A DNA stretch of 64,000 nt from Anaerolineae bacterium (lineage in GTDB: Bacteria > Chloroflexota > Anaerolineae > Aggregatilineales > Aggregatilineaceae), in assembly GCA_018432315.1 (NCBI GenBank), contig JAHDLB010000025.1, forward strand, positions 1 through 64,000. The letters run 5' to 3'. This document shows positions 41,481-60,038 of the stretch, piece after piece. The notes below the pieces were generated by a model. The model worked only from the letters and a program-made list of their open reading frames with translations. It searched no databases and was not told where the DNA came from. Position 1 is the first letter of the stretch. The number at the start of each line of letters is the position of its first letter. Position numbers and translations under genes: made by a program.

Positions 41481-42182
41481 TTAGCTCGAAATCATGTATC
41501 CGACGCCGTGTATGGTACGGATGAATCCCCCCTCGACCCTGTCGGTTTCCAGCTTGGCGCGCAGGTTGCGCACGTGCGCCCGCACCAGGTCCGGATCGCC
41601 CGTGTTGGGCGGGTAGTCCCAGACTGCCTCCAGCAGGTGCTGCGGTGACAGCACCTGGTTGGCGTGTTCCATCAAGTAGCGCAGCAGGCGATGCTCGGTG
41701 GCGGTGAGCTGCACGGGCGGCCCATCGAAAACCGTCATCTGGTGCGTGCTGGAATCCAGCGTCAGGCCGCCGATGACAATCGTCGGACTCTCGACGACGG
41801 CGTTGCGCTGCCCCCGGCGGACCAGCGCGCGCACGCGCGCCGTCAGCTCGGCCAGCTCGAATGGCTTGACCACGTAATCATCGCCGCCCGCATCCAGCCC
41901 GGCCACCACGTCATCCGTCTGCCCGCGCGCCGTCAGGAAGAGAATCGCGAGATCGTTGTACTGGCTGTCGGCGCGAACCTTGCGGCACACGGCCAGGCCA
42001 TCCAGCCCCGGCATGATGATGTCGAGGATGATCAGGTCCGGACGGCGGTCGCCCAGCATCTTGAGAGCTTCCAGGCCGGATAGCGCGCGGCCCACCTCGA
42101 ACCCTTCGCGTTTGAGCGCGCGGGATAGGGTTCCCAGGACCTCAGGATCGTCGTCCACCGCCAAAATATAAGGTTTTGTCAT
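41481..42182 (-). CDS. OmpR/PhoB-type response regulator
   Basis: 233 residues: receiver with VDDDPE, D54 in LIILDIIMPGLDG and K in VVKPFELAELTARVRAL; then a winged-helix effector (LTATEHRLLRYLMEHANQ, RAHVRNLRAKLE, IRTIHGVGYMI). Its start overlaps the stop of the kinase gene by ATGA (42179-42182), so the two are translationally coupled and very probably cognate partners. Confidence 0.93.
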   Translation of the reverse strand: MTKPYILAVDDDPEVLGTLSRALKREGFEVGRALSGLEALKMLGDRRPDLIILDIIMPGLDGLAVCRKVRADSQYNDLAILFLTARGQTDDVVAGLDAGGDDYVVKPFELAELTARVRALVRRGQRNAVVESPTIVIGGLTLDSSTHQMTVFDGPPVQLTATEHRLLRYLMEHANQVLSPQHLLEAVWDYPPNTGDPDLVRAHVRNLRAKLETDRVEGGFIRTIHGVGYMISS

Positions 42183-44815
42183 GATTCGTTTCGCCCACTA
42201 TAAATGGGTAACTGAACGATAAATTCCGTGCCCTCATTATATGTGCTCTCGACACAGATGCTACCCTGACATTTTTCGACAATTTGCTGGCAGATGTGCA
42301 GCCCCAGGCCAGTCCCCTCGCCGGTGGGCTTCGTCGTGAAGAACGGCTCGAAGATCTGCGCCCGCACCTCGTCCTCGATCCCGATCCCGTTGTCCCACAC
42401 GCGGACTTCGACGCTCGCCATGTCGGGCCGGTAGGCGCTGGCGATGCCGATCCGCGCGTCGGGAAGGTTGGCGACGGCGTCGCGCGCGTTCAACAGCAGG
42501 TTGAGCCACACGTCCTCCAACTGGCCGATGATCCCGGCCACCGGCGGCAGGTCCTCCGCCAGATCGACCGCCAGCCCGACGCTGCCGTGCTGGATGTGCC
42601 CGCGGACCAGCGTCAGCGTGTTGGTGATCGTCTCGTTCACGTCCAGCGGCTGCAACGACTCCTCCGCCGACTGCTGCCGCGCCATCCCCAACAGGCGGCG
42701 CACGACCTCGTGCGCGCGCTTGCCCGCCCGGAAGATCGCTTCCAGCGCCTCGGCGTCTTCCCGGTCCGGCGGCAGGTCTTGCAGCAGCATTTCCGTGTCG
42801 CCCAGGATCGTCGTCAGCGGGTTGTTGATCTGGTGCGCCACCGCTGCCGCCAGCTCGCCCATCGCCGACAGACGCGCCGTCTGCACCAGCTTGCTCTGGG
42901 TCCGGTGCAGCTCCTCCAGGCTGATCTCCAGGTCGCGGTACAGCCGGGCGTTGCCCAGCGCGTTCGCCGCCTGGAGCACCAGCGCCTGGGCGAGCTCCAC
43001 TTCGCGCCGCGCAAAATGCCGGTCGGCGCGCGTGTCCACCAGCAGGACCAACCCCTCGGCCTGCCCTTTGATCACCAGCGGCAGGCCCAACAGGCTCTTG
43101 CCGTGCCCCAGTTCCGTCAGGTAGCGCAGCTCGTCCGCGGGCGGCTCGGTCAAGGGAACCTGTTCGGCCAGCACCTGGGCCAACTGCGGGAAGTGCTCCA
43201 GGTCCAGGCCGGGGCGCGGCTCCTCGCGCCAGATCGCTTCGCCATACGACAGCGACAGGACGAACCGCCGCTCGGTCGAGTCCCACAGCGCGATCTCGCA
43301 CCAGTCCGACCGGGACGCGTCGATGATCCGCTGGGCCACGCGGAACAGCGTCTTTTGGTGCTGGCGGGCGTCGCGGCCCGACAGGGTGATCACTGTCTCC
43401 AGCGCCAACTGCTGGACCTGGGCCTGGACGGCACGGGAGTCGCGCGCATCGTCGAACGGGCGGTGAATGTAATACAGGATCACGACCGCCAGCGGGTGAT
43501 CCTGGGTGAACAGCGGGACGTGGACGACATGCCGCGCCAGGTAACGGTGCGGCAGCCACGCCGCCGGCGGCTGGCCCACATACGACCGGGCAGGCGTCAG
43601 GATGGCGATCCGCTGCTGCTTGAAGGACTGCTCGATCCCCGGATGGTTGGCGGCGGACAGCACCGGCCCCTCGCCGGGACGCCACAACGCGCGGGAGCGC
43701 ACCGCCAGCGTCTGCAGGTGATCGTGGTGCGGGCGCCCCTCGCCGATGTAGCATTGGGCCACATCCAGCGCGGCGATGAGCTGCCCGGCGATGATCGACA
43801 GCACGCGGTCGATCGCCAGCGTGGAGTTCGCCGCCTCGCCCGCCTGGACGAGCGTGCTCAGCTCGCGGGTGCGCAGGACGCTTTCCTCGTACAGGCGCGC
43901 GTTCTCGATGGCGACCGCCGCATGGGCCGCCAGGTCCTGCAAAAGCTCGCTGTCGTGCTCGGTAAACGTGCGGTCGGCGGATTTGTTGTTCACGCCCAGC
44001 ACGCCGATCGTCTCGCCCTTGATCGACATCGGCACGTACAGCAGCGACTTGACGAGATACTCGGTCTTCAGCTTCTGGGGCCCCTGGTCGCCCACCAGGA
44101 TCGGCTGGCCCTGGCGAAAGACCTGCCCCGCCAGCGTGTCGCGCGTTTTGATGCGGAAGTTGCGCGCCGTCTCGCTGTCGATGCCCTTGACCGCGCGGAC
44201 GTACAGCGCTTTGCCCTCGTCGTCCGGCAGCAGCAGCAACCCCTCCTCGGCGTTGCTCAGCCGGACCGCCGCATCCACCACCTGGGTGAGCAGCACGTCC
44301 AGGTCCAGCACGGCGCTCAGCGAGCGGGCCAGGTTCGACAGCGTCTGCTGCTCGATCAGGCGGCGCTCCAACAGCGCGCTGAACTCGTCACGCTGCCGGT
44401 CGTCGTGACCCGCGGACGATCTGGCGTCCGGCGGCGGCTCGCCATCGAGCACGGCCTCGATCTGGCGCAGCAGGTGGACCGTCTTCGCGGCGTGCGACAC
44501 CCAGCCGAGCGCGCCGCGCTCGGCCAGCGACTCCGGGTGGGCGTACCGCTCGTCGACGAGCGCGATCCAGCGAACCCACGGGAAATCGACCAGCAGGTCT
44601 ACCATTGCGCGGTTCTGCGAGTCGCCCATGCGCGCATCGATCAGCGCCAGGTCGAACCGGCCATTCTCCAGCAGGTAGATCGCATCGCCGGCGTTGTACG
44701 CCCGGTGAACGCTGTAGCCCGCCGTCTCCAGCGTCCCGGACAGGCGATCCATCACGTCGGGATCGCCCTCGACCAGCAGCAGACGCGTCGCGTTGAGATT
44801 GGGCAAATAATCCAT
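42179..44815 (-). CDS. REC-like - multi-GAF sensor histidine kinase
   Basis: 878 residues. Residues 1-125 form a receiver-like domain with [11 protein letters not shown], but the usual acidic pair is EGD and the K/P region is not clear, so it may be a pseudo-receiver. Several GAF-type domains fill about 150-620 ([20 protein letters not shown] and [16 protein letters not shown] are recognisable). HisKA has H661 in [14 protein letters not shown] and the HATPase ends with [15 protein letters not shown]. No transmembrane segment is obvious, so it is likely cytoplasmic. It is translationally coupled to the downstream OmpR-type regulator and lies 84 bp after a PspA-like gene. Confidence 0.9.
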
Positions 44816-44899: not shown

Positions 44900-45511
44900 C
44901 TACTGGCTCAGACGCGCGCGGCGCTGGGCCAGATCATCCTCAATCGCCCCGTCTTCCACCTCTTCCGGCGGGGCATCGGCTTCCAGGGCTTCCATTTCCT
45001 GCGTCTCGAGGAACAGGCGAGCCGTGCGCAAACGCGACGACAGGACTTCGACCGGGCCGGACTTGGCGGCGGGTTCGGCGGGCGCTTCGGACTGCTGGGC
45101 GCGCGCCTCTGCGACCAGGGCTTCCAGCTCGTTGACCCGGTGAATCAGTTCGGAGGTTGCGCGGCGGTGCTGGTCGAGGTCGGATTCGGCCATCGCCAGC
45201 CGTTGGCTCGCGTGCTGCATCTGGCGAACGGCATGGCGCGCCGTCGCTTCGTCGTCCCGTTCCAGGGCGCGATCGGCCTGCTGATCCCAGTCCGCCACCT
45301 CGCGGCGCAGCGCGTCGATGGCGGCGGCCTGTTCGTCTTCGTCGTCCAGCGCCCGGTTGATCCGCTCGCGCAGCGCGGCGATCTCCTGGTCGATGTCGTC
45401 GCCCAACTGGTCGCGCCGGGGCGGCCCACCGCGCCGCCGGGGCTCGTCCCCGAACACGCTGTTGATGCTGGATCGAACCAGCACGTTGAACTTGCTGAGT
45501 AAATCGCTCAT
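44900..45511 (-). CDS. PspA/IM30-like coiled-coil protein
   Basis: 203 residues from ATG 45511; the longer open frame to 46057 overlaps pgeF on the other strand and lacks similarity. It opens with SDLLSKFNVLVRSSINSVFGD, like the amphipathic N-terminal helix of PspA/IM30 proteins, then a long charged coiled coil (about 38-140), and an Ala/Pro/Glu-rich tail. PspA-type proteins form scaffolds on stressed membranes. It lies upstream of a kinase/two-regulator set on the same strand, which fits an envelope-stress circuit, though no pspB/C/F is present. Confidence 0.7.
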   Translation of the reverse strand: MSDLLSKFNVLVRSSINSVFGDEPRRRGGPPRRDQLGDDIDQEIAALRERINRALDDEDEQAAAIDALRREVADWDQQADRALERDDEATARHAVRQMQHASQRLAMAESDLDQHRRATSELIHRVNELEALVAEARAQQSEAPAEPAAKSGPVEVLSSRLRTARLFLETQEMEALEADAPPEEVEDGAIEDDLAQRRARLSQ

Positions 45512-45583
45512 AACTCTGTATTGTACAGGGTTGAAATAGCGCCCGCAATGCCTGATCGCGCGAATCCTGCCCGGCGGTGGCGG

Positions 45584-45613
45584 TCGACGGAGTGCGATCG
45601 TGTGCGGTATAAT
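45584..45613 (+). promoter_or_regulatory. Promoter of the pgeF-ygg cluster
   Basis: TCGACG (45584-45589), 18-bp spacer and perfect TATAAT (45608-45613). The start would fall only about 9 nt before the ATG at 45629, so translation may begin almost leaderless, or from a later start. Confidence 0.5.
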
Positions 45614-45628
45614 CGTCTCCGGGACGGA

Positions 45629-46438
45629 ATGACACCACCAGGACGAATTGTGCAGCGCATCGAAAACAACGGATTGGTGTATTACCAGTTTGACCAGTGG
45701 GCCGGCGCCGGGCCGTTGACGCACGGGATTTTCACCCGGCACGGCGGCGTGAGTCCCGCGCCGTGGGCATCGCTCAACGTGGGCGGCACGGTCGGCGATT
45801 CGCCCGCCGCCGTGCAGGAGAATCACCGCCGCATGCTCGCCGCGCTGGACCTGGACAGCGCGCAGACGTGCACCGTGTGGCAGGTGCACAGCGCCGATAC
45901 GGTCGTCGTGCGGGGCCGCGCGCCCAACCGGCGCTGGCTTGCCCGCGCCGATGGCATGGTGACCGACCGGCCCGGCCTGCCGCTGACCATGCGCTTCGCG
46001 GACTGCACGCCGATCATCCTGTACGACCCGGCGCGTCACGTGGCGGGAATCGCGCATGCCGGCTGGCGCGGCACCGTCCTGGGGGCGGCAGTGAGCGCGC
46101 TGCGCGCCTTACAGGCCGCCTACGGGACCCGGCCCCAGGACGTGCAGGCGGGCATCGGTCCCAGCATCGGGCCGGAGCGCTACCAGGTGGGCGAAGAAGT
46201 CGTCGACGCCGTGCGCGACGCGTTCGGCACGCTCGACGGCCTGATCCGCCGGGCGGCGGACGGCAGCGCCTACCTCGACCTGTGGGCCGCCAACCGGCTG
46301 GCGCTGGAACGCGCGGGCGTGGGGCAGATCGAAACGGCGAGCATCTGCACGGCAGCCCGCACCGACGAGTTTTTCTCTCACCGAGCCGAACAGGGCCGCA
46401 CCGGGCGCTTTGGCGCAGTGATCGCCCTGACAGGATAG
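45629..46438 (+). CDS. pgeF: Peptidoglycan editing factor PgeF (YfiH/laccase-domain family)
   Basis: 269 residues from ATG 45629. Family motifs: HGIFTRHGGVS, TVWQVHSADTVVV, TMRFADCTPIILYD and GIAHAGWRGTVLGA, which hold the conserved His/Cys residues. PgeF removes L-Ser wrongly placed in peptidoglycan stem peptides in E. coli; the older multicopper-oxidase name is probably misleading. The upstream extension to 45521 is not conserved. It ends 4 bp before yggS, in the order found near cell-division genes in many bacteria. Confidence 0.92.
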   Translation: MTPPGRIVQRIENNGLVYYQFDQWAGAGPLTHGIFTRHGGVSPAPWASLNVGGTVGDSPAAVQENHRRMLAALDLDSAQTCTVWQVHSADTVVVRGRAPNRRWLARADGMVTDRPGLPLTMRFADCTPIILYDPARHVAGIAHAGWRGTVLGAAVSALRALQAAYGTRPQDVQAGIGPSIGPERYQVGEEVVDAVRDAFGTLDGLIRRAADGSAYLDLWAANRLALERAGVGQIETASICTAARTDEFFSHRAEQGRTGRFGAVIALTG

Positions 46439-46442
46439 ACCG

Positions 46443-47189
46443 ATGGATCTGACAATCGCGTCGATGACCGAACGGATCGCGGACGTGCAGGCCGAGATCG
46501 AGCGCGCCTGCCACCGCGCCGGGCGCTCGCCGGACTCGGTGACGCTGGTCGCGGTCAGCAAGACGCACCCGCCGGAGGACATCGCGACAGCGGTCCGCGC
46601 CGGGCTGCGCCAGTTCGGCGAGAATCGCGTCGAAGAGGCGATCCCCAAAATGGCGGCGGTCGCCGAGCGGGTCGACGAATCGCTGGCGTGGCACATGATC
46701 GGCCACGTGCAGAGCCGCAAAGCGCGCCACGTGACGGCAGGCTTCACGCTGCTGCATTCGCTGGACAGCGTCCGGCTCGCCGAGCGCCTGAGCCGCGCCC
46801 TGGCCGAACGCGACGGCGCGCTGGAGGTGCTGCTGGAAGTGAACGTCTCCGGCGAGGAAACGAAACACGGCTGGGACGCGTATTATTGGCAAGAACGCAC
46901 GGCAGCGCGGCGCGCCCTGTGGGACGACGTCGCCCGGATCCTGGCGCTGCCCGGCCTGGCGGTGCGCGGCCTGATGACGATGGCGCCCATCGTGGACGAT
47001 CCCGAAGAGGCCCGCCCGGTGTTCGCCGCGCTGCGGACGCTGCGCGACGCGCTGGCGAACGACTTCCCGGCGGCGGCCTGGGATCACCTGAGCATGGGCA
47101 TGACCGACGATTATCCGGTCGCGATTGAGGAAGGGGCCACGCTGGTCCGCATTGGCCGCGCCATTTTCGGCCCGCGTTTGACAACCTGA
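46443..47189 (+). CDS. yggS: YggS/PLPBP-family PLP homeostasis protein
   Basis: 248 residues, single-domain TIM-barrel PLP protein. The PLP lysine is K40 in TLVAVSKTHP; FGENRVEEA, WHMIGHVQSRKARHV, and LSMGMTDDYPVAIEEG are the typical signatures. It is involved in PLP and amino/keto-acid homeostasis and has no known enzymatic turnover. It starts 4 bp after pgeF and 45 bp before yggT. Confidence 0.95.
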   Translation: MDLTIASMTERIADVQAEIERACHRAGRSPDSVTLVAVSKTHPPEDIATAVRAGLRQFGENRVEEAIPKMAAVAERVDESLAWHMIGHVQSRKARHVTAGFTLLHSLDSVRLAERLSRALAERDGALEVLLEVNVSGEETKHGWDAYYWQERTAARRALWDDVARILALPGLAVRGLMTMAPIVDDPEEARPVFAALRTLRDALANDFPAAAWDHLSMGMTDDYPVAIEEGATLVRIGRAIFGPRLTT

Positions 47190-47234
47190 CCGGGCTCCGG
47201 CCCGTGGAGCGACTTGTGAGTAGGAGATAGACCG

Positions 47235-47498
47235 TTGAACACGTCCGCGTTTGGCGCTTTGATTGCGCTGTTCATCCAGTTGTATTCGTTTGTGATCCTG
47301 GCCCGCGTGCTGATGAGCTGGGTGAATGTCGACCCCTACAGCCCGCTGGCGCGCACCATCTTCGACCTGACCGAGCCGGTGCTCCAGCCGATCCGGAACA
47401 TGCTCCCGCCCGCCGGCGGGCTTGACTTCAGCCCCATCATCGCTATCATCCTTCTTCAGTTCCTGGGGCAGCTTTTCATCAGCGTGTTGGGCGGGTGA
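47235..47498 (+). CDS. yggT: YggT family membrane protein
   Basis: 87 residues with two hydrophobic helices (FGALIALFIQLYSFVILARVLMSW and IIAIILLQFLGQLFI) and the family stretch VLQPIRNMLPP between. YggT proteins are small inner-membrane proteins linked to osmotic tolerance and division clusters; mechanism unknown. GTAGGAG-like site upstream; TTG at 47235 is the likely start. Confidence 0.9.
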   Translation: MNTSAFGALIALFIQLYSFVILARVLMSWVNVDPYSPLARTIFDLTEPVLQPIRNMLPPAGGLDFSPIIAIILLQFLGQLFISVLGG

Positions 47499-47548
47499 CC
47501 GCCTGCGCCCCGTGCGAAGCCGGTTGGCGCTAGAAAAGGATGGTACCG

Positions 47549-47854
47549 ATGACACGTGAATTCCGAATCACCGACGCGCAGCACGGCGCGGCGTTCACCG
47601 TCCGGGTGATCACGCGCGCGGATCGCGTCGAAATTGCGGGGATCCAGGATGACGGTTCGCTGAAGATCCGCCTGACCGAATCGCCCGGCGAAGGGCGCGC
47701 CAACGCCCAGTTGATCGAGTTCCTCGCAGGCGTGCTGGAAGTGGAGCCAGAACAGATCGCCATTGTGGCCGGGCACGACAAGTCGAACAAGATCATCAGC
47801 GTCGAAGGCGTGCCGCCGGCCTGGATCGAGCAGCGCCTGGCGCACCTGCGCTAG
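47549..47854 (+). CDS. yggU: DUF167/YggU family protein
   Basis: 101 residues from ATG 47549; AAGG is 9 nt upstream, whereas the ATG at 47540 touches it. The conserved core LKIRLTESPGEGRANAQLIEFLA and AGHDKSNKIISVEG are typical of DUF167. Function is unknown in general. It completes the pgeF-yggS-yggT-yggU set. Confidence 0.9.
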   Translation: MTREFRITDAQHGAAFTVRVITRADRVEIAGIQDDGSLKIRLTESPGEGRANAQLIEFLAGVLEVEPEQIAIVAGHDKSNKIISVEGVPPAWIEQRLAHLR

Positions 47855-47875: not shown

Positions 47876-48733
47876 ATGCTGGGCATGCATTTACCTCACC
47901 GGAGGATCGCCGCGATCCGGCGCTGGGCGCTGGTGGCGCTGAGCGTCCTGCTGCTGGCCGCCTGCGGGTCGGACTCGGGCGCGGATTCGCGCCAGCCCGC
48001 CCCTACCCGCACCCTGGTCCCTCCCACGCCCACACCGACCGCGCCCCCCTTCACGCCCACCATCACGCCCACCGACCTCCCCGCGCCGTCCGCATTGGAA
48101 CCCGCCGCCACCGAAACCACCGGCGGCCCGCTGCCCGCCGACGCGCAGGCGATCATCGACCGCGCGCTGGCGGACCTGGCCGGGCAGCAGGGGGTCGATC
48201 AGGCGGACGTCCGCCTGATCAGCCTGGAGGCGATCACCTGGCCGGACGCGTCGCTCGGCTGCGGTGCCGAGCGCGAGGGCGATCCGGGCACCGTGCGCGG
48301 CTACCGGCTGCTGTTCAGCGCCGGGCGCAACCGGTATATCTACCACGCCGACCGGGGGGAAACCGTGCTGCTGTGCGAAGACGGGGACTGGACCGGCTGG
48401 CAGGGCGAGCCGCTGGCGCCCGACCCGATCGCCGAGTCGATGGTCGAGCTGGCCTCACGCGACGCGGCCCGGCAGCTCGACATCCCGCAGCGCCAGATCG
48501 CGCTCGCCAGCCTGATGGCGGTCACCTGGCCGGACGCGTCACTCGGCTGCCCCAAGCCCAACGCGGAATACGAGGAACAGACCGAGCCGGGCTACCGGCT
48601 GGTCTTCCGCGCGGGTGACGCCCCGATCATCTACCACACGAGCATTCGCCACGTGGTCCGCTGCGCGCCGGAAGAGGAAATCTTGCCCGGCCTGCTGCGC
48701 CCGCTGGTCGCCACCCCCGAACCCGCTCCCTGA
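47876..48733 (+). CDS. Lipoprotein with two tandem WPDASLGC domains
   Basis: 285 residues. A basic start, hydrophobic helix and lipobox LLLAAC give a lipid-anchored Cys30; a Thr/Pro-rich linker covers about 40-85. Two homologous domains follow with identical WPDASLGC at 122-129 and 218-225, each ending in GYRL(L/V)F...YHxD/S about 20-35 residues later. The 96-residue period shows an internal duplication. The conserved Cys pairs suggest disulfides or ligand binding. I do not know a function. No clear ribosome site is visible at 47876; ATG 47885 is an alternative. It is 21 bp after yggU. Confidence 0.75.
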   Translation: MLGMHLPHRRIAAIRRWALVALSVLLLAACGSDSGADSRQPAPTRTLVPPTPTPTAPPFTPTITPTDLPAPSALEPAATETTGGPLPADAQAIIDRALADLAGQQGVDQADVRLISLEAITWPDASLGCGAEREGDPGTVRGYRLLFSAGRNRYIYHADRGETVLLCEDGDWTGWQGEPLAPDPIAESMVELASRDAARQLDIPQRQIALASLMAVTWPDASLGCPKPNAEYEEQTEPGYRLVFRAGDAPIIYHTSIRHVVRCAPEEEILPGLLRPLVATPEPAP

Positions 48734-48796: not shown

Positions 48797-51403
48797 TCAG
48801 GTCAGGCCCGGCAGCGGCTCGCCGAGCCGCAGTTGCAGATCGGCCAGGGCCGCATACGCGGCGCTGCGCACATCCGGATCGCGGTCGCGCAGGGCGGCGT
48901 ACAGCGGTTTGAGCGCGGGCACGTGCCCCAGGTAGCCGAGCGAGCGGGCGGCCAGCGCTTTGTAAACCGGCTGGCCCTCTTGCAGCACGCGGATCAGCAC
49001 CTGGCGCGCATTCGGCCCGGCGGGCACGCCCTCACCGCGCTCGGCGGCCCACTGGATCAGCCAGGTCTGCGCGTCGGCTTCGGGCAGCGAGCGCGGCCCG
49101 CTGCGCTCCGGCGACAGCGCCCTGGCGAACGCTTCTTCCGCCGCCGCGCGGACGTACCACTGCTCGTCTTCGAGCATGGCGCGGTACAGCGCGGCCACCG
49201 CCCAGCCGGCGCCGACGCGGCTCAGGCCGTACACTGCCGCCCGGCGGATCATCATGTCGTCGGCGGCGATCCCGTCGCGCAGGATGGCGTGCCCCTCGCG
49301 GGGGATGGCGGCCAGCGCCTCGGCAATCGCCCGGCGCAGGTCCTCCGAGCCTTCCAGCAGCCCGTGGACCATCACTTCCAGCGCGCGCTCGCTGCCGATG
49401 GCGCCCAACGCGACCGCCGCCGCAAGCCGGATCTCGCGGTGATCGTCGTCGAGCAGCGGCGCCAGGTCTTTGACCGTCTCGGGATCGCCCAGCGCCCCCA
49501 GCCCGATGCACGCCAGCCGCCGCACGTCCAGGTTCGTGGCGCGCAGCGCCTGGCGCAGCACGTAAGCCACGTTCGGATCGCGGGACGCGATCAGCGCCGC
49601 CAGCGCGCGGTCGCGCACGGCAGGGTATTGGTCAGGCGCCATCAGGGCCGCCGCCAGCCGCTTGAACACGTCGCCGCGCCAGGGCACATCCGGCGGCGCG
49701 TCCGGCAGCCAACGCGCCAGCCCAAACAGGTTGGTATACAGCAAATCGGGCGAGACGCTCAGCCGGCGGTAGATCGCCGGCAGCAGGTTGAGCCGCGCCG
49801 CCGCGAACGCAAACGCGCCATCCCAGGCGGAGTCGAGCGCCATCTCGGCGGCTTTTTCGCTGCCGGCCTCGGCCAGCCATTCGCCCGCCAGGAAATTGGC
49901 GAACTGGACGTGCGGCAGGCTCACCGTGTCGCCCGCGCGGGCCACCAGCAGGCCATCTTCCTCCAGCGCGGCTACGAGCGCCGTGCTGTCCGGCGCTTTT
50001 TTGCCCTCTTCGGCGCGCGCAGCAGACAGCGCCTGGGCCAGCTCCGCGCGCGAGACCGGGCGCCCCGCCTCGACGATCCGCACGGCCAGATCGGGCAGGC
50101 GGTCGCGCAGGTCGTCCTGGGACAGGTGGCGGGCGATCCAGGCGTCGTACCAGCCCGCGCGCCCGGCAACTCGCGTGTCGTTCGCCAGCCCGGTCCAGAT
50201 CTTCAGCGTGACGTCGAGCACGCTCAGCCCGCGGTTGCCCACCGAGATACGGCGCAGCACCTGCTCATCGGGCGGGCCGGCCTTGCGCTTGCCGTCGGTG
50301 CCGAGCGTCCACGCGGCGCTCCACCGCTGGACCAGCTCGGCGTAATGGTCGTCGTGCCACGCGCGCAGATAGGCCGGCGTGAATCCGAGACTCGCCAGCG
50401 GATCGAAGCCATCAACGGTCCCGGCGGCGACGATCATGTTGTGCCCGTACTGCGCCATGAATTCCCGCAGCCAGGGCATCAACAGCTCGCGCGCGGATGG
50501 TGACAGCTCGTCGAAACCGTCGATCAGGACCAGCGCCCGGCCCTGTTCCAACAGCGGGTATACCACGCTGCCGATCACCTGCCCGGTGACGGCTGTCACG
50601 TGGCGCTGCACGGCCCGCACCAGCGGTTCCGCCGGGTCGAGCGCCTCGCCCTTGCCATAGACGGCGGGGTCGAACTCGAAATCGGCCAGGTGGGCCAGCA
50701 CCGGCATCAGGTCGCGCAGGTCGATGACCGGTTGGACCTCGGCGGAAGGCGCGCCTTCGGCCTGGCCCTGTTCGGCGCGCACGTTGTGGAGCTGTTCCAG
50801 CGCCCGCGCCTGGATCTGGGCGCGTTCCTCGGCTCGCTGGCGCCGCTCGTCCGCGGACAGGTGCTGCTCCTGCTCCAGCAGGGCGCGCTCGGTTTCGTCT
50901 TCGTCCGGCGCGAACGACACCTCACCGAGCGCCATCAGGGCCAGCGCCGCGAGCGCCGTGCTGGTGCCCATGCCCGGCTGGCCCAGGATCGCCACGTGGC
51001 GATCACCGGCACCCAGGTCTGCCAGCGAGATCGTCTCGATGTTGAAATTGGCATAGCCCTGCGGCAGGTCGTGAACCAGCGGCACCACGTCGTACACACC
51101 GGTCCCTTCGGCTTCGTCGTCGGGCGAATTCACCGCGCTGACGGCGGGGATCAGGCGTGGCTCGACCAGGATGTCCGACAGGTTGACCAGCCGCCCGGCC
51201 ACGTGGCGCGCCTGCACGTGGCGGAGCAGATCCCGCTGGTAGCGGGCCGCCGCCGAACGCCCCACGAACTGCCGCGTGCCTTCGATCTGCGACCCGGCGG
51301 TTTCCTGCATCCGGGCGATGCGGGCGCGGGCGCGCCACACCACCAGCGACAACCCCGCCGCCGAGGAAAAGCCAATCAGGAATGAGAAGGGATCGAAGCG
51401 CAT
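48797..51403 (-). CDS. Membrane-anchored NACHT-like NTPase with C-terminal HEAT repeats; P-loop lysine missing
   Basis: 868 residues. A hydrophobic N-terminal helix (about 6-24) likely anchors it, followed by a charged coiled-coil region. The P-loop reads GQPGMGTST at 141-149, where canonical NACHT/STAND proteins have GxxGxGKST; the lysine is Thr147. Walker B is LVLIDGFDEL at 291-300. A winged-helix/helical region lies about 400-560, and from about 590 to the end HEAT-like repeats recur (AALIASRDPN, GLGALGDPETVK, ALGAIGSERA). STAND proteins usually sense ligands and oligomerise on ATP; without the lysine, nucleotide hydrolysis is doubtful. It starts 12 bp after the zinc-ribbon gene stop. Confidence 0.75.
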   Translation of the reverse strand: MRFDPFSFLIGFSSAAGLSLVVWRARARIARMQETAGSQIEGTRQFVGRSAAARYQRDLLRHVQARHVAGRLVNLSDILVEPRLIPAVSAVNSPDDEAEGTGVYDVVPLVHDLPQGYANFNIETISLADLGAGDRHVAILGQPGMGTSTALAALALMALGEVSFAPDEDETERALLEQEQHLSADERRQRAEERAQIQARALEQLHNVRAEQGQAEGAPSAEVQPVIDLRDLMPVLAHLADFEFDPAVYGKGEALDPAEPLVRAVQRHVTAVTGQVIGSVVYPLLEQGRALVLIDGFDELSPSARELLMPWLREFMAQYGHNMIVAAGTVDGFDPLASLGFTPAYLRAWHDDHYAELVQRWSAAWTLGTDGKRKAGPPDEQVLRRISVGNRGLSVLDVTLKIWTGLANDTRVAGRAGWYDAWIARHLSQDDLRDRLPDLAVRIVEAGRPVSRAELAQALSAARAEEGKKAPDSTALVAALEEDGLLVARAGDTVSLPHVQFANFLAGEWLAEAGSEKAAEMALDSAWDGAFAFAAARLNLLPAIYRRLSVSPDLLYTNLFGLARWLPDAPPDVPWRGDVFKRLAAALMAPDQYPAVRDRALAALIASRDPNVAYVLRQALRATNLDVRRLACIGLGALGDPETVKDLAPLLDDDHREIRLAAAVALGAIGSERALEVMVHGLLEGSEDLRRAIAEALAAIPREGHAILRDGIAADDMMIRRAAVYGLSRVGAGWAVAALYRAMLEDEQWYVRAAAEEAFARALSPERSGPRSLPEADAQTWLIQWAAERGEGVPAGPNARQVLIRVLQEGQPVYKALAARSLGYLGHVPALKPLYAALRDRDPDVRSAAYAALADLQLRLGEPLPGLT

Positions 51404-51415
51404 AGCAGGTCCTCT

Positions 51416-52117
51416 CTACAGCGCGATCAGGAGTCGCCCGCAGCTCGTACACGTGACCAGTTCGTCACCGTGGCGCACCTCCTGGACCACGTTGGCCGTC
51501 GCCCGCACGCCGCAGGACGTGCACGACTCGCCTTCCAGTACCGCCACGGCAACGCCGCGCTTGTTGGCGCGCAGCGTATCGTACAACTGGAGATTGCCCT
51601 CCGAGACGTTCTGCAGCGCCGCCTCGCGGTCCGCCTTCAGCTTTTTGATGGTGCGCTTGAGCGCGTTTTTCTCGCCGGTGAGCGCCTCTTCTTCGCCGGC
51701 GCGGTCCGCTTCGAGCTTGCCGAGGCGCTCGGTCGCCCCGGCGAGCGCGGCTTGCAGGTCGTCGATCGCGATCATCGACTCCAGCAGGGCGTTTTCGCGA
51801 TCGGCCCGGCGGCGCTTGAGCTCGTCGATCTTGCCCTCTATGTCCTGGAGTTCCTTCGGGTTGCTGACGTGCCCGCCGTACAACCGATCGTTCAACTGCG
51901 TCGTCTGGCTGGTGATCGACTTGATCTCCAGGTTCAAATCCGCCGACTGCGCCTCCTGCTTGTGCAGCGAGTCTTGCAGGGCCGCCACCTCGGCGCGCGC
52001 CTCGCCCAGGCCGCCATCCTGTTCGAGCACGGCGTTGATCTCGCGCACCCGCCGGCGCTGCGCGTCCAGTTCGAGATCGATCTTTTGCAGGCGGTACAGG
52101 GCTTTGATCTGGCTCAT
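51416..52117 (-). CDS. Coiled-coil protein with C4-type zinc ribbon (DUF164/CT398 family)
   Basis: 233 residues. A long coiled coil covers about 5-185 (many Leu/Glu/Arg heptads), then a zinc ribbon with C199, C202, C223 and C226 (CTSCG twice). Members are widespread and usually have no assigned function; some bind flagellar or RNA-related partners. It is the first gene of a two-gene unit with the NACHT-like protein and divergent from the glycan cluster. The 166-bp gap 52118-52283 holds no other gene. Confidence 0.85.
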   Translation of the reverse strand: MSQIKALYRLQKIDLELDAQRRRVREINAVLEQDGGLGEARAEVAALQDSLHKQEAQSADLNLEIKSITSQTTQLNDRLYGGHVSNPKELQDIEGKIDELKRRRADRENALLESMIAIDDLQAALAGATERLGKLEADRAGEEEALTGEKNALKRTIKKLKADREAALQNVSEGNLQLYDTLRANKRGVAVAVLEGESCTSCGVRATANVVQEVRHGDELVTCTSCGRLLIAL

Positions 52118-52283
52118 GGAATTCCTCGCGGGCTGGCGGAACCGGTGGCTCGATGTACAATGAGCATAGCGTTAATGTCGCTAAAGCATAAATTGACAAG
52201 GCGCATTATACTACACCAGAATCACACGGCAAACCTGTCAGCTTGGTTTGGCTTTACCCGTTCTGCAACCAGCGAGGTCGCCT

Positions 52284-53981
52284 ATGCAAACGCTGCGCTC
52301 CGTATATGTTTCGACCGCCGAATGGCGCTGGGTGATCGTGATCAGTGGCATTCTGGTGGGGTTGACGCTGGTTCCCTATGCCTGGGCACTCGCTACCAAC
52401 GAAACCGCGGACGGGTGGCAGTTCATGGGTATGCTGTCCAATCCGAAGGACGGCGCGACCTACCTCTCCAAGATCGAGCAGGGGCGCCGGGGCGCGTGGC
52501 TGTTCGAGCTGCGCCACACGCCCGAAAGCCACAACGGGGCAGGCTTCCACACGTTTTACATCTTCCTGGGCCACACGGCGCGCGTCACCGGGCTGTCGAG
52601 CCGGCTCATCTTCCACATCGCGCGCGTGGCAACCGGGCTGTTCATGTACATCTCGATCTACCAGTTGGGCGCCACCATCTGGGTGCGGCTGCGGCCCCGC
52701 CGGCTGTTTTTCACCCTGCTCTCGGTCGGATCGGGGCTGGGCTGGCTGCTGCTGCTGCTCAACCCGGACCGGCTCGCCGCCGATATGAACATCCCCGAAG
52801 CCTTTCCGTTCTACGCGGCCTATACCAACCCGCATTTCCCGCTGAGCATCGCCAGCCTGGCGCTGATCGCCGCGCTGTACATCATCGTCTTCCGGCGCGG
52901 CTTCACCGATCCGCCCAGCGTGGACAACGGCGGGTTGGGATTGATGCTGCTCGCCATGCTGCTCGCGCTGATCCAGCCGACCGCGCTGGTGCCCATCGGG
53001 GGCGCGTTGGGGCTGTACGTGATCGCGCGCTGGTACCTGACGAAGGAATTCCCAAGCCACGAACTGCGCTGGTCGGCGCTGCTGTGGCTGCCGGCGATTC
53101 CGTTCGCCGTGTACGATTTCGCCGTCTTTCGCTTCAACGACATCATGGGCGAGTTCAACCGGCAGAACCAGACGCCCTCGCCCGATCCGATCCTGTACGT
53201 ATTCGGCTACGGGCTGCTGTTGATCGTCGCTATACCGGGGCTGGTGCGGGCCGTGCGCCGCTTCGAGCGCGACGGCGACCAGTTCATGCTGCTGTGGTTC
53301 GCGGTCAACGTGATCGGCCTGTACGCGCCGTTTAGCTTGCAGCGTCGCCTCGCGCTGGGCCTGATCATCCCGATCGTGTACTTCGCCGTGCGCGCGCTCG
53401 AAGATTACTGGTTCTACATCGTGCCGAAAAACTGGCGCGCCCCGGCCATGATCGCGCTGATCGTCTTCGTCGTGCCCAGCAACCTGATCGTGCTCGGCAT
53501 TCCGCTGGTGGGCGCGGTCGCCAGCCCGGAGCGCGGACTTGACGCCGGGCTGCTGATCGACACCGACTACTGGGAACAGATCCAGTGGCTGGACAAAAAC
53601 GGCCAGAACGATGCCGTGGTGCTCGCCGCGCCGACCATCAGCCTGTGGATCCCGGCGTATACCCGGCAGCGCGTGGTGTACGGGCACGAGTTCGAGACGG
53701 TGCCCAACGACATCCGGATCCAGCAGGTCGAGGACTGGTACCGGGGCGTGGATTGTGACACGCTGCTCGGCGACGGCCTGCCGTTCCAGGTGCGGTACAT
53801 TCTGTGGGGCCCCCAGGAACGCGATCTCGGGTACAGCGACGAGGACGAGGACGGCGACGAGTCCCGGCGCTTGCTCTACCCCGACACCGGCAAGTGTGTC
53901 GAGCAGATCCCCGCGAGCCGCATTGCAGAGGAAGTGATTCACGGTGATGTCACCCTCTACGTCCTGGCCGGCGCCAACTAA
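52284..53981 (+). CDS. Multi-pass membrane protein, family A (envelope glycan cluster)
   Basis: 565 residues from ATG 52284 (GAGGT upstream). Many hydrophobic helices from residue 10 to about 440, then a soluble extracellular-type C-terminal domain. The first loop has GWQFMGMLSNPKDGATYLSK, matched in the gene at 56051 by DWQFGGMLFGADDGYSYLAK, so the two are paralogues. They resemble GT-C-type glycosyltransferases in layout but no specific family is certain. It overlaps the next gene by about 35 nt, so translation is probably coupled. Confidence 0.7.
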   Translation: MQTLRSVYVSTAEWRWVIVISGILVGLTLVPYAWALATNETADGWQFMGMLSNPKDGATYLSKIEQGRRGAWLFELRHTPESHNGAGFHTFYIFLGHTARVTGLSSRLIFHIARVATGLFMYISIYQLGATIWVRLRPRRLFFTLLSVGSGLGWLLLLLNPDRLAADMNIPEAFPFYAAYTNPHFPLSIASLALIAALYIIVFRRGFTDPPSVDNGGLGLMLLAMLLALIQPTALVPIGGALGLYVIARWYLTKEFPSHELRWSALLWLPAIPFAVYDFAVFRFNDIMGEFNRQNQTPSPDPILYVFGYGLLLIVAIPGLVRAVRRFERDGDQFMLLWFAVNVIGLYAPFSLQRRLALGLIIPIVYFAVRALEDYWFYIVPKNWRAPAMIALIVFVVPSNLIVLGIPLVGAVASPERGLDAGLLIDTDYWEQIQWLDKNGQNDAVVLAAPTISLWIPAYTRQRVVYGHEFETVPNDIRIQQVEDWYRGVDCDTLLGDGLPFQVRYILWGPQERDLGYSDEDEDGDESRRLLYPDTGKCVEQIPASRIAEEVIHGDVTLYVLAGAN

Positions 53982-56058
53982 GCGAGCGGGCCTGGCCTGG
54001 ACTGCCGCCTTGGCGTTGGGACTGGCGGCTTTTTTGTTCGGGGCGGGCCTGGGGCCGGACAGTCTGCCGTTTCCGCCGCGCTCCGACTTCTCGGACGCCG
54101 TCACCAGCCACTGGCCGAGCGCCGTCTTTCTGCGCGACTCCGTGCGCGAGGACGGCACGTGGCCGCTGTGGCGCCCCCTGATCATGAGCGGCAGCCCGTT
54201 CGCGGCCAACCCGCTCAACAAAGTCTGGTACCCGCCGCAGTGGCTCGTGCTGATCGTCCCGCCCATCCTGCACCTGAACCTGCTCGCGTGGCTGCACCTC
54301 GTCGCCGGGGGAGCCGGGGCGTGGTTGTGGAGCCGGGGCTCCGGCCTGGGACCGTGGCCCGCCACCCTGACCGGCGCGGGATACGCGTTCGCGCCGCGCA
54401 TCATGGCGGCGGTCGGCGCGGGCCATCTCGACCTGGTCTACGCGGCGGCGTGGTTCCCGTGGCTGCTGTGGGCCATCGACCGGCTGGCGCGCCCCGTCCC
54501 CGCCCGCGGATCGGTCGCGGGGTTGGGAGCCATCGCCGCGCTGTGCTTCCTGGCGGACGTGCGGCTGAGCGCCTATTTCTTCGCCTTCGCGGCGGCTTAT
54601 CTCGCGTGGCGCTGGCGCACCATCCCCGGCCTGACGCTCCGCCGCCACGGGACGCGCATCGCGCTGGCCGCGCTGCTGGCCGCCGGGCTGAGCGCCGTCC
54701 AGTGGATCCCGCTGCTGCTCTACCGCGCCGGCCTGTCGCGGGCGGACATCACGCTCAACGAGGCCGCGCTGCACAGCCTGAGTCCCGGCCAGTGGATCGG
54801 CCTGCTGATCGGCGATCATGGCGGCGGGTGGGAGACGCTGGTGTATATGGGCGTCAGCACGCTGCTGCTGGCGCTGGCGGCGCTGGCGCTGCGCCCGCGG
54901 GCGCTGGCGTTTTGGGGACTCGCGCTGGCGGCGGTCATGCTGTACGCGATGGGCGATCACTCCCCGCTATGGGTCGCGCTCAACCGGCTGATCCCGCCGC
55001 TGCGCTGGTGGCGCGTGCCGCCGCGCGCGTGGTTCATCGCCGCGCTGGCGCTGCCCTATCTGGCCGGGTGGGGCGCGCAGCTTCTGGCCGAACGCCCGCC
55101 CGATCGCAAGGCCGCGCGGCTGGGCGTCGCCGGGCTGTTGGGCGGCGGGCTGGTCTGCGGGATCTTCAGCAGCCTGACGCTTTCCTCGTCGCTGGAACTG
55201 ACCGCCCTGCTCGGCACGTTCGCGCTGCCGGCTGCGGCGCTGGTGCTGCTGCTGGCGATGCGGCGGGCGCTGCCGCCGCGCGCGATCATGGCGCTGTTCG
55301 CGCTGGTGGTCGTGGGCGACATGCTGTGGATCGACCGGACGCTGATCGACGGGCGCCCGCGTGACACATGGCTCGACCCGCACCGCGAGCTGGCCGAATT
55401 TCTGGAGGCCGATGGCGCAGCGCGCGTTTATTCGCCGAGCTACAGCCTGCCGCAGCAGGCCGCCGCCCACTGGTCGATCGCGCAGTTCGGCGGGGTGGAC
55501 CCCTTCCAACGGGCGGCTTACGTCGGCGCGTTCGAAGCAGCGACCGGGGTCGCGGCCCAGGGCTACAGCGTCACGCTGCCCGCCTACGATCTCGCGGGCG
55601 AGCCGGGCGCTGACGGGGACGGCGACGGCGAAGCGGCGATCCTCGCCCGCGCCAACCGCGAGGCGCCCATCGACGCTTCGCTGCTCGGCCAGTGGCTGGT
55701 AACCCACGTCGTCGCCGCCTTCCCGATCGAGGCCGATGGGCTGGCCCCGGCAGCGCAGATCGGCGATGTCTACGTCTACCGCAACACGCTCGCGCCGGAC
55801 GTGACGCTGGCCTGGGACGGCCCCAACCGTGTGACGGTCCGCGCCGCCGCGCCGTTCGACGGGACGCTCTACGCCGTGTCGAACGGGCGCTGGCGGGACG
55901 CGGACGGCGATCTCCCCGGCCTGCCCGGCGCGGTGGCGGCTCCGGCGCGCGAATGGGCCTACCGTTACGACCCGTCCGAGGTCTGGATCGGGCTGGCGGC
56001 GGGCGGCGGGCTGTGCGCCGCGGCGCTGGCGGGCTGGTGGGTGGTGCGCTATGCCTGA
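53947..56058 (+). CDS. YfhO-like multi-pass membrane protein, family B
   Basis: 703 residues from ATG 53947 (GTG 53944 also possible). Typical YfhO layout: an N-terminal helix, a loop with SDFSDAVTSHWPSAVFLRD and GSPFAANPLNKVWYPPQW, then many helices and a long extracellular C-terminal domain. YfhO-type proteins are thought to move sugars from polyprenyl phosphate to lipoteichoic-acid-like or other glycans, but substrates here are unknown. Its paralogue is the gene at 57687. The gene starts inside the end of the family-A gene and overlaps the next by 8 nt. Confidence 0.78.
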   Translation: MSPSTSWPAPTKRAGLAWTAALALGLAAFLFGAGLGPDSLPFPPRSDFSDAVTSHWPSAVFLRDSVREDGTWPLWRPLIMSGSPFAANPLNKVWYPPQWLVLIVPPILHLNLLAWLHLVAGGAGAWLWSRGSGLGPWPATLTGAGYAFAPRIMAAVGAGHLDLVYAAAWFPWLLWAIDRLARPVPARGSVAGLGAIAALCFLADVRLSAYFFAFAAAYLAWRWRTIPGLTLRRHGTRIALAALLAAGLSAVQWIPLLLYRAGLSRADITLNEAALHSLSPGQWIGLLIGDHGGGWETLVYMGVSTLLLALAALALRPRALAFWGLALAAVMLYAMGDHSPLWVALNRLIPPLRWWRVPPRAWFIAALALPYLAGWGAQLLAERPPDRKAARLGVAGLLGGGLVCGIFSSLTLSSSLELTALLGTFALPAAALVLLLAMRRALPPRAIMALFALVVVGDMLWIDRTLIDGRPRDTWLDPHRELAEFLEADGAARVYSPSYSLPQQAAAHWSIAQFGGVDPFQRAAYVGAFEAATGVAAQGYSVTLPAYDLAGEPGADGDGDGEAAILARANREAPIDASLLGQWLVTHVVAAFPIEADGLAPAAQIGDVYVYRNTLAPDVTLAWDGPNRVTVRAAAPFDGTLYAVSNGRWRDADGDLPGLPGAVAAPAREWAYRYDPSEVWIGLAAGGGLCAAALAGWWVVRYA

Positions 56059-57694
56059 GCGAGCCACGGTCTCGGCGCGGGAATGGCGCTGGGCGATCCT
56101 GTTCGCCGCCGCGGTGATGGTCCTCACGACGATCCCCTACGTGGCCGGGTGGCTGGTGCAGGACGACGACTGGCAGTTCGGCGGGATGCTGTTCGGCGCG
56201 GATGATGGCTACAGCTACCTGGCGAAAATGCGCCTGGGCGCGCGCGGCGACTGGCTATTCACCGTCCGCTATACGTCCGAGCCGCACGACGGCGCGCTCT
56301 TGTTCCTGCCTTACATCCTGCTCGGCCACCTGACCGCGTTGGTCGTCGATTCCCAGGGCGCGGACCTGACTCCCGCGCTGGCGGTGACGTTCCACGTGGC
56401 GCGGATCGTGTGCGGCTTTGGACTGCTGCTGGTCGCCTACCGGTTCGCTGCCGCCTTCCTGCGCCGTCCGCACACACGGCGGCTGGCGCTCGTCCTGATC
56501 GCGCTGGGCGGTGGGCTGGGCTGGCTGTTGGCGCTCGCCGGGCAGGGGCACCTGTTCGGGTCACTGCCGGTCGATTTCTACGTCCCGGAGGGCTACAGCT
56601 TCCTGATCCTGTTCGGCCTTCCGCATCTGGCCCTGGCCCGGAGCGGTCTGCTGGGCGGATTCCTGCTGCTGTTCGGCGCGCTGGGCGAAGCGGAGCCGCG
56701 CCGCTGGCTGCCGCGGGCCGCGCTGGCCGGGCTGTGCTGGGCAGTGATGGGGCTGTGCGTGCCGTTCTACGTGGCCGTGCTGTACGCGCTGCTGGGCGCC
56801 TGGGGACTGGCGGCCTGGATCGCGCAGCGCCGGTTCCCCTGGGCGCTGTTCTGGCGGGCCGCGGTGGGCGCGGCGGTTGCCCTGCCGGTGCTGCTCTACA
56901 GCGCGTTGGTCTTCGCCGCCAACGACGTCCTGGCCGAGTGGTCGAGCCAGAACCGGCTGCCGTCGCCGCACGTGCTGCACGCCGTCGCCGGCTACGTCGT
57001 CCTGGCGATCCCCGCGCTGTGGGGTATCCGCTGGGCGTGGCGCAAGAGCGCCCGCCGGGGTGATCTCCGCAGCCTGCTGCTGGTGGCGTGGGTCGTTAGC
57101 GCGCCGGTCCTGGTCTACCTGCCAGTGAACGTGCAGCGCCGCCTGGCCGAAGGCGTGATCGTGCCGCTGGTCGTCCTGGCCGTGGCCGGGCTGCGCCTGA
57201 TGAGCCGCCAGCGGCGGCGGCGCGCCCTGGCGCGGAACGTCGTGCTGGCCCTCGCCCTGCCAACCGCGCTGCTGCTGTGGCTGGGTGGGCTGGTCAGCGC
57301 CCTCGCGCCGGACCGCCCGCTGTTCCGCCCGCGCGCCGAGATCGCCGCGCTGGAACGGTTGGACGCCGCCGCGCCGCGCGATGCCGTCGTGCTCAGCTCG
57401 AAGGAGACCGGCAACGTGGTGCCCGCCTACACCGACCTGATCGCGTACGTCGGCCACGGGCCGGAGACGATCGACTCGGGCCGGAAAGAACAGCAGGCGC
57501 AGGACTTTTTCGCCGGAACGCTCGCCGCGGACGAACGCCGCGCCCTGCTGGACGCGGTCGATGTCGTCTTCTACGGGCCGCTCGAAGTCCCTGAGGACGG
57601 TGCGCGCTCCCTGGACTGGGCCGCCGGGCTGCGCCTGATGCCGGGGTTCGCGCCGGATGATCCGTATGTCGTCTACGAGGTGCCGCATGACTGA
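56051..57694 (+). CDS. Multi-pass membrane protein, family A' (paralogue)
   Basis: 547 residues; aligned by eye with the gene at 52284 over the first 200 residues (REWRWAILFAAAVMVLTTIPY against AEWRWVIVISGILVGLTLVPY, and FHVARIVCGF against FHIARVATGLF). Many helices, then a short soluble C-terminal domain. It overlaps the previous gene by 8 nt and the next gene starts in its last codons (ATGACTGA), so translation is tightly coupled. Function as for family A; unknown substrate. Confidence 0.7.
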   Translation: MPERATVSAREWRWAILFAAAVMVLTTIPYVAGWLVQDDDWQFGGMLFGADDGYSYLAKMRLGARGDWLFTVRYTSEPHDGALLFLPYILLGHLTALVVDSQGADLTPALAVTFHVARIVCGFGLLLVAYRFAAAFLRRPHTRRLALVLIALGGGLGWLLALAGQGHLFGSLPVDFYVPEGYSFLILFGLPHLALARSGLLGGFLLLFGALGEAEPRRWLPRAALAGLCWAVMGLCVPFYVAVLYALLGAWGLAAWIAQRRFPWALFWRAAVGAAVALPVLLYSALVFAANDVLAEWSSQNRLPSPHVLHAVAGYVVLAIPALWGIRWAWRKSARRGDLRSLLLVAWVVSAPVLVYLPVNVQRRLAEGVIVPLVVLAVAGLRLMSRQRRRRALARNVVLALALPTALLLWLGGLVSALAPDRPLFRPRAEIAALERLDAAAPRDAVVLSSKETGNVVPAYTDLIAYVGHGPETIDSGRKEQQAQDFFAGTLAADERRALLDAVDVVFYGPLEVPEDGARSLDWAAGLRLMPGFAPDDPYVVYEVPHD

Positions 57695-60038
57695 TCGCGA
57701 CATCCCCGCCTGGCTGCCGTTCGCCCTGCTGATCCTGGCCATGGCCGCGCTGTTTCCGGGCGTGCTGGCGGGCGAGGTGCTGTTCTGGGGGCTGCCGTCG
57801 CTCCAGTTCTACCCGTGGCGCGAATACGCCTTCGAGCAGGTCGCCGCCGGGAACCTGCCCGCGTGGAATCCGCTGGTCGGGGCGGGCGCGCCGCTGCTGG
57901 CGAACTACCAGACCGCGGTCTTCTACCCGCCCAACTGGCTGCACCTGCTGCTGCCCGACGCGCACGCCATGTCGATCGTCGCCGTGCTGCACGTGCTGTG
58001 GGCCGGGCTGGGGATGTGGCTGTTCAGCGGGGCGCTGGGCCTGCCGGCGTTCGGGCGCGCGTTCAGCACGTTGGCCTACGCGCTCTCCGGCTACCTGATC
58101 GGGCGCGCGGGGTCGTTCCCCACCGCCGACGCCGCCGCCTGGATCCCGTGGATCTTCTGGCTGGCGTGGCGCGTCGCCACCGGCGGGCGCTGGCGCGACG
58201 CGGGCGGGCTGGCGCTGGCGTTCGCCATGCAGCTCCTCGCCGGGCACGCCCAGACCACCTGGTACAGCGCGGTGGCGGTGGGCCTGTTCGCCCTGTGGAT
58301 CGCGCTCTGGCTCCGGCGCGGCGATCCGGCTCCCCAGCGGGCGGGCGCGCTGGCGCTGGCCGGGCTGGCGGCCCTGCTCGGCGCCGGGATCGCGGCGATC
58401 CAGTTGCTCCCCACGGCGGAATACCTGCTCGAATCGCAGCGCTCCGGCGGGCTGGATTACGACACGCTCACCAACCTGTCCTATCACCCGCTGCGGCTGG
58501 TGACGTGGCTGAACCCGAATTTCTTCGGCTCACCGGTCGATGGCTCGTACCTGACCAAAGGCAAGGGCGCGTTCTTCGAGGATCACGCCTATATCGGCTT
58601 TTTGCCGGTCATCGCGGCGGGCGCGGCAGTGATCGGCTGGCTGCGCCTGCGCCGGACGCCGCCCGGCGATCGCGCCTTTCGCACCATCCCGTTCTGGGCC
58701 GGGCTGGCGCTGCTGGGCCTGTTCTTCGCCGGGGGCAAGCACAACCCGCTGTTCCGCACGCTGTACGACGTCGTGCCCACGTTCGACGCCTTCCGCGACC
58801 CGGTGCGCTGGCTGATCCTGCCCGCGTTCGGCCTGTCCGTGCTGGCCGGGATCGGGACGGAGCATTGGGGGCGCGGCAGGTGGATCGTCTTCTGGTCGCG
58901 GCTGGCGGGGGCCGGGGGCGCCGGGCTGGCGATTATGGCGCTGGGCTTCGTCACGCTCTCCGATCCGGAGTCGGACACGCTGCGCGTGCTGTCGTGGAGC
59001 ATGGCCGAGTTGGGCTGCTGGATCGCGGTCGCCGCGCTGCTCACGCTGGTCAAGCCGGACGCGGCCACGGGCACGAGGCCGGGCCTGTGGCGCACCACCG
59101 TGTTGATCTTCGTCGCCATCGATCTGGCCTGGGCCGGCGCGGGGCTGAACCCGACCGTCACGCCGGACTATTACACCGGCGAGGTCGCCATCGCGCGCCC
59201 GGCGGGGCGGATTTACTGGTTCGAGGATACCGAAGACGACGTCACCTTCGGCGGCGACGAAGACGCGCCCAACTCGCCGCCCGGCTATTTCAACCTGGGC
59301 GACTACCGCATCGCCCAGGACGACTGGCGGGCGGTCCGGACGTCGCTGCTGCCCAACCTGACCATGCTCGACGACGTGGCGACGCTCAACAACAACGACC
59401 CGCTGCTGCCGGGCAGCTTCAGCCGCTACGTCGCCCTGATCGAGGACCTGGGCCCGGCGGCGGGATCGCTGCTGCGCGCCGGCGGGGTGAGCCACGTCTT
59501 CGGCCCCGCGCCCGATGGCTGGCGGGGCAGCAACCCGGCCACCGCCCCGGACGATCCGCTGGCGGCGTGGCTGGTACCGGACGCCCTCTGGCTGGCGGAT
59601 GACGCCGCCATCGAAGATACGCTGCGCGATCCGGCCTGGGACCCCCAGCGAACCGCCATCCTGCGCGGCGCTCCCCCCGCGGGCGCGCCGGTCGCCCCGC
59701 TGGCAACCGGCGCCGCCACGTTGATCGACGAGGCCCCCACCCGGCTGGCCTATCGCGTGGAGGCGGACGGCGCGGGCGTCCTGGTACTCAGCCGGGCGTG
59801 GTATCCCGGCTGGCGCGCTGAGCGCGACGGGGAGCCGGTCGAGCTGCACCGGGCCAATCTCGCGTTCATGGCCGTGGCCGTCCCGCCGGGCGAGAGCACC
59901 GTCACCCTGAGCTACAGCCCGACCCACTGGCGGGCGGGCGTCGCGGTGTCGGGGATCGCGCTGGCGCTCGTGATCGGATTGGCCGCGTGGGCATGGGCGC
60001 GCGAGCGGCGGGCAAACGCGGGGGAACCCGATGGCTGA
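57687..60038 (+). CDS. YfhO-like multi-pass membrane protein, family B'
   Basis: 783 residues from ATG 57687; it overlaps the previous stop by 8 nt. Early loop YPWREYAFEQVAAGNLPAW and NYQTAVFYPPNWLHLL follow the YfhO pattern and match the family-B gene at 53947 (YPPQWLVLI). Many helices, with an extracellular C-terminal domain ending in a final helix (VAVSGIALALVIGLAAWAWA). Acidic and Asn-rich stretches near 500 could be substrate loops. It is the fourth of the A-B-A'-B' set and overlaps the GT2 gene by 8 nt. Confidence 0.8.
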   Translation: MTDRDIPAWLPFALLILAMAALFPGVLAGEVLFWGLPSLQFYPWREYAFEQVAAGNLPAWNPLVGAGAPLLANYQTAVFYPPNWLHLLLPDAHAMSIVAVLHVLWAGLGMWLFSGALGLPAFGRAFSTLAYALSGYLIGRAGSFPTADAAAWIPWIFWLAWRVATGGRWRDAGGLALAFAMQLLAGHAQTTWYSAVAVGLFALWIALWLRRGDPAPQRAGALALAGLAALLGAGIAAIQLLPTAEYLLESQRSGGLDYDTLTNLSYHPLRLVTWLNPNFFGSPVDGSYLTKGKGAFFEDHAYIGFLPVIAAGAAVIGWLRLRRTPPGDRAFRTIPFWAGLALLGLFFAGGKHNPLFRTLYDVVPTFDAFRDPVRWLILPAFGLSVLAGIGTEHWGRGRWIVFWSRLAGAGGAGLAIMALGFVTLSDPESDTLRVLSWSMAELGCWIAVAALLTLVKPDAATGTRPGLWRTTVLIFVAIDLAWAGAGLNPTVTPDYYTGEVAIARPAGRIYWFEDTEDDVTFGGDEDAPNSPPGYFNLGDYRIAQDDWRAVRTSLLPNLTMLDDVATLNNNDPLLPGSFSRYVALIEDLGPAAGSLLRAGGVSHVFGPAPDGWRGSNPATAPDDPLAAWLVPDALWLADDAAIEDTLRDPAWDPQRTAILRGAPPAGAPVAPLATGAATLIDEAPTRLAYRVEADGAGVLVLSRAWYPGWRAERDGEPVELHRANLAFMAVAVPPGESTVTLSYSPTHWRAGVAVSGIALALVIGLAAWAWARERRANAGEPDG

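Follow-up and report, generated by a model that had tools for sequence, protein, structure and literature searches.

The window analyzed here, a 64,000-nucleotide stretch of contig JAHDLB010000025.1 from an Anaerolineae bacterium, encodes an 868-amino-acid membrane-anchored protein with a predicted NACHT fold and C-terminal HEAT repeats (positions 48797 to 51403, minus strand; intact open reading frame [ORF] with an ATG start). It is an old, vertically inherited core protein of the Anaerolineae (Chloroflexota), in which lysine and arginine have replaced one another several times at one position of the P-loop, and the threonine found there in the window is a one-off of this genome. We tentatively propose, giving the proposal rather less than an even chance, that the family is a housekeeping branch of the NLR-like NACHT proteins, spread through the class and turned membrane scaffold, in which nucleotide would be a structural or slow-switch cofactor, P-loop-lysine catalysis would have been given up repeatedly, and a CT398-type zinc-ribbon protein would serve as partner at the envelope.

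One clear orthologue was present in most of the 61 genomes searched in the taxonomic order, at about one copy per genome. The gene was detected in 69 of 298 sampled genomes of the class and, in a sample of the phylum, was confined to Anaerolineae; the phage and plasmid records searched did not contain it, and no paper on the family was found in open-access publications. One locus (L097), whose record is titled Pleurocapsa minor, a cyanobacterium, lies on a 1.02-Mb contig with the gene order of the Anaerolineae, and this metagenome-assembled genome is probably mislabelled.

An AlphaFold2 model computed from a 46-sequence alignment (pLDDT 87.6, pTM 0.87) predicts a long N-terminal helix (residues 5 to 64), a P-loop core with strands at 136 to 140, 233 to 238, 290 to 295, 323 to 328, and 342 to 346, then a helical domain, a winged-helix region at about 430 to 495, and HEAT helices up to residue 860. 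The best fold matches in the PDB were NLRP3 (9gu4; Z 19.7, rmsd 4.3 over 405 residues), NOD2 (5irn; Z 19.5), and NLRC4 (Z 18.4). These matches span residues 46 to 616 approximately and score well above the repeat-protein rows, pointing to a NACHT-type NBD-HD1-WHD-HD2 core. The first-pass annotation, which had named structure prediction as a check on the NTPase-type fold, is upheld on this point. The Pfam NACHT match is weak (16.5 bits for the window protein against a cut-off of 26.7, with 28 of 46 family members matched at an E value of ≤0.01, the best at 1.1e-6), and it is the predicted fold that identifies the core; a profile search with the sequence of the NACHT region only found no convincing match among PDB chains. 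Since the window protein both misses the Pfam cut-off and lacks the P-loop lysine, we refer to it as NACHT-like, not as a canonical NACHT NTPase.

The remainder of the proposed architecture, a membrane-anchored NACHT/HEAT protein, is likewise consistent with the data. Hydropathy, charge pattern, and the model helix place a membrane anchor at residues ~5 to 24 (positions 51332 to 51391, minus strand), continuous with the 5-to-64 helix, and 81 of 93 aligned rows have a 17-residue window of mean hydropathy >1.2 within their first 75 residues. Positive charges follow the hydrophobic stretch, so the body of the protein is predicted to be cytoplasmic. The C-terminal HEAT repeats (residues ~541 to 860; positions 48824 to 49783, minus strand) are recognized by Pfam (HEAT_2, 7.1e-31) and by the model helices, and by column entropy no other well-conserved stretch in the family is as long as the one in this array.

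The P-loop of the window protein reads GQPGMGTST (residues 141 to 149; positions 50957 to 50983, minus strand) in both the ORF translation and the family alignment column, departing from the GxxxxGK[ST] pattern by a Thr for the Lys. Thr147 is encoded by ACC (positions 50965 to 50963, minus strand) within the string GGC ACC AGC ACG. The Walker B motif, LVLIDGFDEL (residues 291 to 300; positions 50504 to 50533, minus strand), conforms to hhhhD[G/A/S]h[D/E][D/E]. Both motifs are as the first-pass annotation described them, an altered P-loop next to an intact Walker B, and both can be read directly from the ORF.

Of the 90 rows in an alignment covering the class, 48 have Lys at residue 147 and 41 have Arg; Thr occurs in the window protein only, confirming that the lysine has been lost in this genome. 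The last glycine of the P-loop (Gly146) and Asp295 were invariant, residue 148 was always Ser or Thr, and Gly296 of Walker B was kept in 80 rows. A separate collection of 60 homologues, taken from named genomes that largely represent the same organisms, gave Lys 34, Arg 25, one unreadable sequence, and Thr again in the window alone. With Lys or Arg at this column in all 89 homologues whose P-loop could be read, Thr147 is not an alignment slip. The same residues rule out the suggestion that the Thr might be conserved, all 16 homologues from the same family of organisms having Lys, an outcome that the first-pass annotation had itself named as a refutation. It follows that a conserved nucleotide-independent scaffold cannot be argued from Thr147; what survives of that idea is its other half, altered nucleotide use, which the Lys/Arg exchanges make plausible for the family at large.

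These exchanges were traced on a phylogeny from which the P-loop columns had been left out. Five changes between Lys and Arg are needed, well-supported branches forcing at least four, and the clades with Arg are both deep and stable. The window Thr is confined to a terminal branch; in the 25-row clade to which this branch belongs (SH-aLRT 99), every other row has Lys. Such repeated, long-lasting swaps make relaxed or altered nucleotide use plausible family-wide. In control proteins, chosen by NACHT score, a choice that favors Lys, the lysine was kept in each of the 20 other NACHT proteins from relatives that could be read and in the eight other NACHT-like proteins checked in the window genome. 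Raw counts also hinted that Arg147 might go with decay of Walker B, E299 being kept in 39 of 48 Lys rows versus 21 of 41 Arg rows, a link that the four independent contrasts are too few to establish as significant once relatedness is taken into account.

The strongest competing interpretation is that the protein is an ordinary ATP-driven STAND switch in which Lys and Arg are functionally equivalent and Thr147 is either a loss confined to this genome or a change that has been compensated. The uniform Lys of the same-family relatives would fit, as would the NLR-like predicted fold and the conservation of Ser/Thr148, Asp295, and, for the most part, His498 (positions 49910 to 49912, minus strand), which by sequence position corresponds to the winged-helix (sensor 2-type) histidine and is H in 81 of 90 rows. 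Against it, the Arg clades are long-lived and the two residues have changed places several times, a pattern that other NACHT proteins from these genomes do not show, and the usual sensor 1 Arg was not seen: columns 327 to 333, which by sequence position, not superposition, come after strand 323 to 328, contain no conserved Arg in the 90 rows. On balance we consider an ordinary switch rather unlikely.

It is quite improbable that Thr147 reflects an assembly or sequencing error or a gene in decay. Its genus is represented by one genome, so Thr147 has no close relative to confirm it, but turning either Lys codon (AAA or AAG) into ACC takes two base changes, which a single-base error fails to explain. 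As to decay, the reading frame is intact and private changes are not in excess: the window protein deviates at 11 of 199 clade-invariant columns, compared to 4 to 16 in other lineages represented by a single genome.

The surroundings of the gene are conserved in families of the class that are only distantly related. A divergent multi-pass membrane protein (positions 52248 to 53981, plus strand), seen upstream at 56 loci and without a convincing Pfam family, is followed by a zinc-ribbon gene and the NACHT-HEAT gene, both in the same direction, and then by convergent genes in the order lipoprotein-like gene, yggU (DUF167), yggT, yggS, and pgeF. In the window, the lipoprotein-like gene, a downstream neighbor at 28 loci, occupies positions 47876 to 48733 (plus strand) and the ylm-type pgeF-yggS-yggT-yggU cluster, assigned by Pfam and by its class-wide order, positions 45521 to 47854 (plus strand). 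Several of the loci compared are truncated by a contig end, and the neighborhood differs in some clades.

Other genes nearby may be recorded. The divergent membrane protein opens a run of large multi-pass membrane proteins (positions 52248 to 60038, plus strand) that contains two repeated pairs and ends in a YfhO match (positions 57657 to 60038; 2.9e-17); the block is kept upstream in many Anaerolineae loci. Adjoining the ygg cluster, a PspA/IM30-like coiled-coil gene (positions 44900 to 46057, minus strand; 1.3e-5, below cut-off) has a longest-ORF start that overlaps pgeF. Further away are a response regulator and GAF-domain histidine kinase pair (positions 41481 to 44815, minus strand) and TadE-like plus Tad/VWA-type genes of Flp pilus assembly (positions 37499 to 40504, minus strand).

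The zinc-ribbon gene (positions 51416 to 52117, minus strand) lies 12 bp upstream of the NACHT-HEAT ORF on the same strand, ORF and Pfam data agreeing with the first-pass annotation. Its 233-amino-acid product combines a CT398-type coiled-coil hairpin with a C4 zinc ribbon (Zn_ribbon_9/DUF164), both above the Pfam cut-off (CT398_CC, 54.8 bits; Zn_ribbon_9, 35.5 bits), and the four cysteines of the ribbon (CxxC...CxxC) are invariant in 24 rows. No other Zn_ribbon_9 gene was found in the window genome. The co-conservation of the two genes, which the first-pass annotation proposed to check, stands as a common and old pairing, not as an obligate one, since the zinc-ribbon family is more widespread (253 of 298 class genomes versus 69 for NACHT-HEAT) and was not detected in some NACHT-HEAT genomes (e.g., G023, G025, G031, G036, and G070). 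In another, G069, the zinc-ribbon gene is on a different contig from the NACHT-HEAT gene. In some of the clades where no zinc-ribbon gene is adjacent, the place directly upstream of the NACHT-HEAT gene is taken by a response regulator of the OmpR type (L151, positions 1720 to 2457; L157, positions 5401 to 6102).

Some bacterial NACHT proteins are antiphage (PMC12169576) and the predicted fold is NACHT-like, but an antiphage role of the bNACHT type is highly improbable for a gene that is about single copy, vertically inherited, and fixed in its order, with no copies found in phages or plasmids, no nuclease or other effector domain in the Pfam search, and no PADLOC model match apart from HEAT repeats and weak ATPase hits. 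A mobile or defense gene is accordingly unsupported by the PADLOC, phage, and plasmid searches.

We prefer to regard the protein as a membrane scaffold or a slow nucleotide-binding switch with a housekeeping role and no essential need for hydrolysis, Thr147 going one step further in this genome, a reading that in our judgment has an even chance of being right. The protein would be tethered to the inner surface of the membrane, with the HEAT array binding a partner that in many lineages is probably the co-encoded zinc-ribbon coiled-coil protein, and its work would belong to an envelope or housekeeping job. A housekeeping role, read from gene order and inheritance alone, fits better than an immune sensor because the gene is single copy and its order fixed. 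Nucleotide may remain bound and stabilize one state, given that Gly146, Ser/Thr148, and Asp295 are kept, as is the WHD histidine in most rows. Fast hydrolysis would be nonessential, as suggested by the repeated interchange of the P-loop Lys and Arg and the persistence of the Arg lineages. In the window genome, Thr147 probably lowers binding further in a protein that does not appear to be decaying. Precedents from other P-loop proteins are indirect and point both ways. RAD51 K133R binds ATP and does not hydrolyze it (PMC8934640), while NLRP3 K232A has hydrolysis reduced 3-fold and ASC specks abolished (PMC9633759). The NLRP3 result, in line with the dependence of canonical NLR switching on the P-loop, is the main argument against dispensable hydrolysis: as a dead P-loop kills NLRP3 function, the Arg members may still be active. 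Lys and Arg are also both basic, and Arg could support catalysis here.

Bacterial NACHT proteins have mostly been studied as immune sensors, and a syntenic, about single-copy, class-wide NACHT-HEAT protein would represent a nonimmune use of the NLR-type core. The natural Lys/Arg/Thr series in its P-loop also offers ready variants for asking what hydrolysis serves in STAND proteins.

Compared to known systems, the window protein resembles the animal NLRs of the STAND class (NLRP3, NOD2, and NLRC4) in its predicted NBD-HD1-WHD-HD2 fold, its DGxDE-type Walker B motif, and its WHD histidine. It differs from them in having HEAT repeats instead of LRRs and a membrane anchor in place of a CARD or PYD, in the exchange of the P-loop Lys for Thr (and for Arg in many relatives), and in that the conserved sensor 1 Arg was not seen in the Anaerolineae family; sequence identity is only ~12 to 15% over the matched region. 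With the antiphage bNACHT proteins it shares a central NACHT-type core. Neither the patchy, mobile distribution nor the effector domain characteristic of that group was found in the NACHT-HEAT family, which is a class-restricted core gene of about one copy with conserved synteny, and nothing found groups the window protein with antiphage bNACHT. The zinc-ribbon partner has the coiled-coil hairpin and four-Cys ribbon of CT398, HP0958 (FlgZ), and MSMEG_4306 (Zn_ribbon_9, DUF164; CdsZ in NCBIfam), and it falls far under the NCBIfam CdsZ cut-off (39.7 of 275 bits). CT398 and HP0958 have been linked to RpoN and to type III/flagellar export (PMC5947703), whereas the partner described here is co-encoded with a NACHT-HEAT gene.
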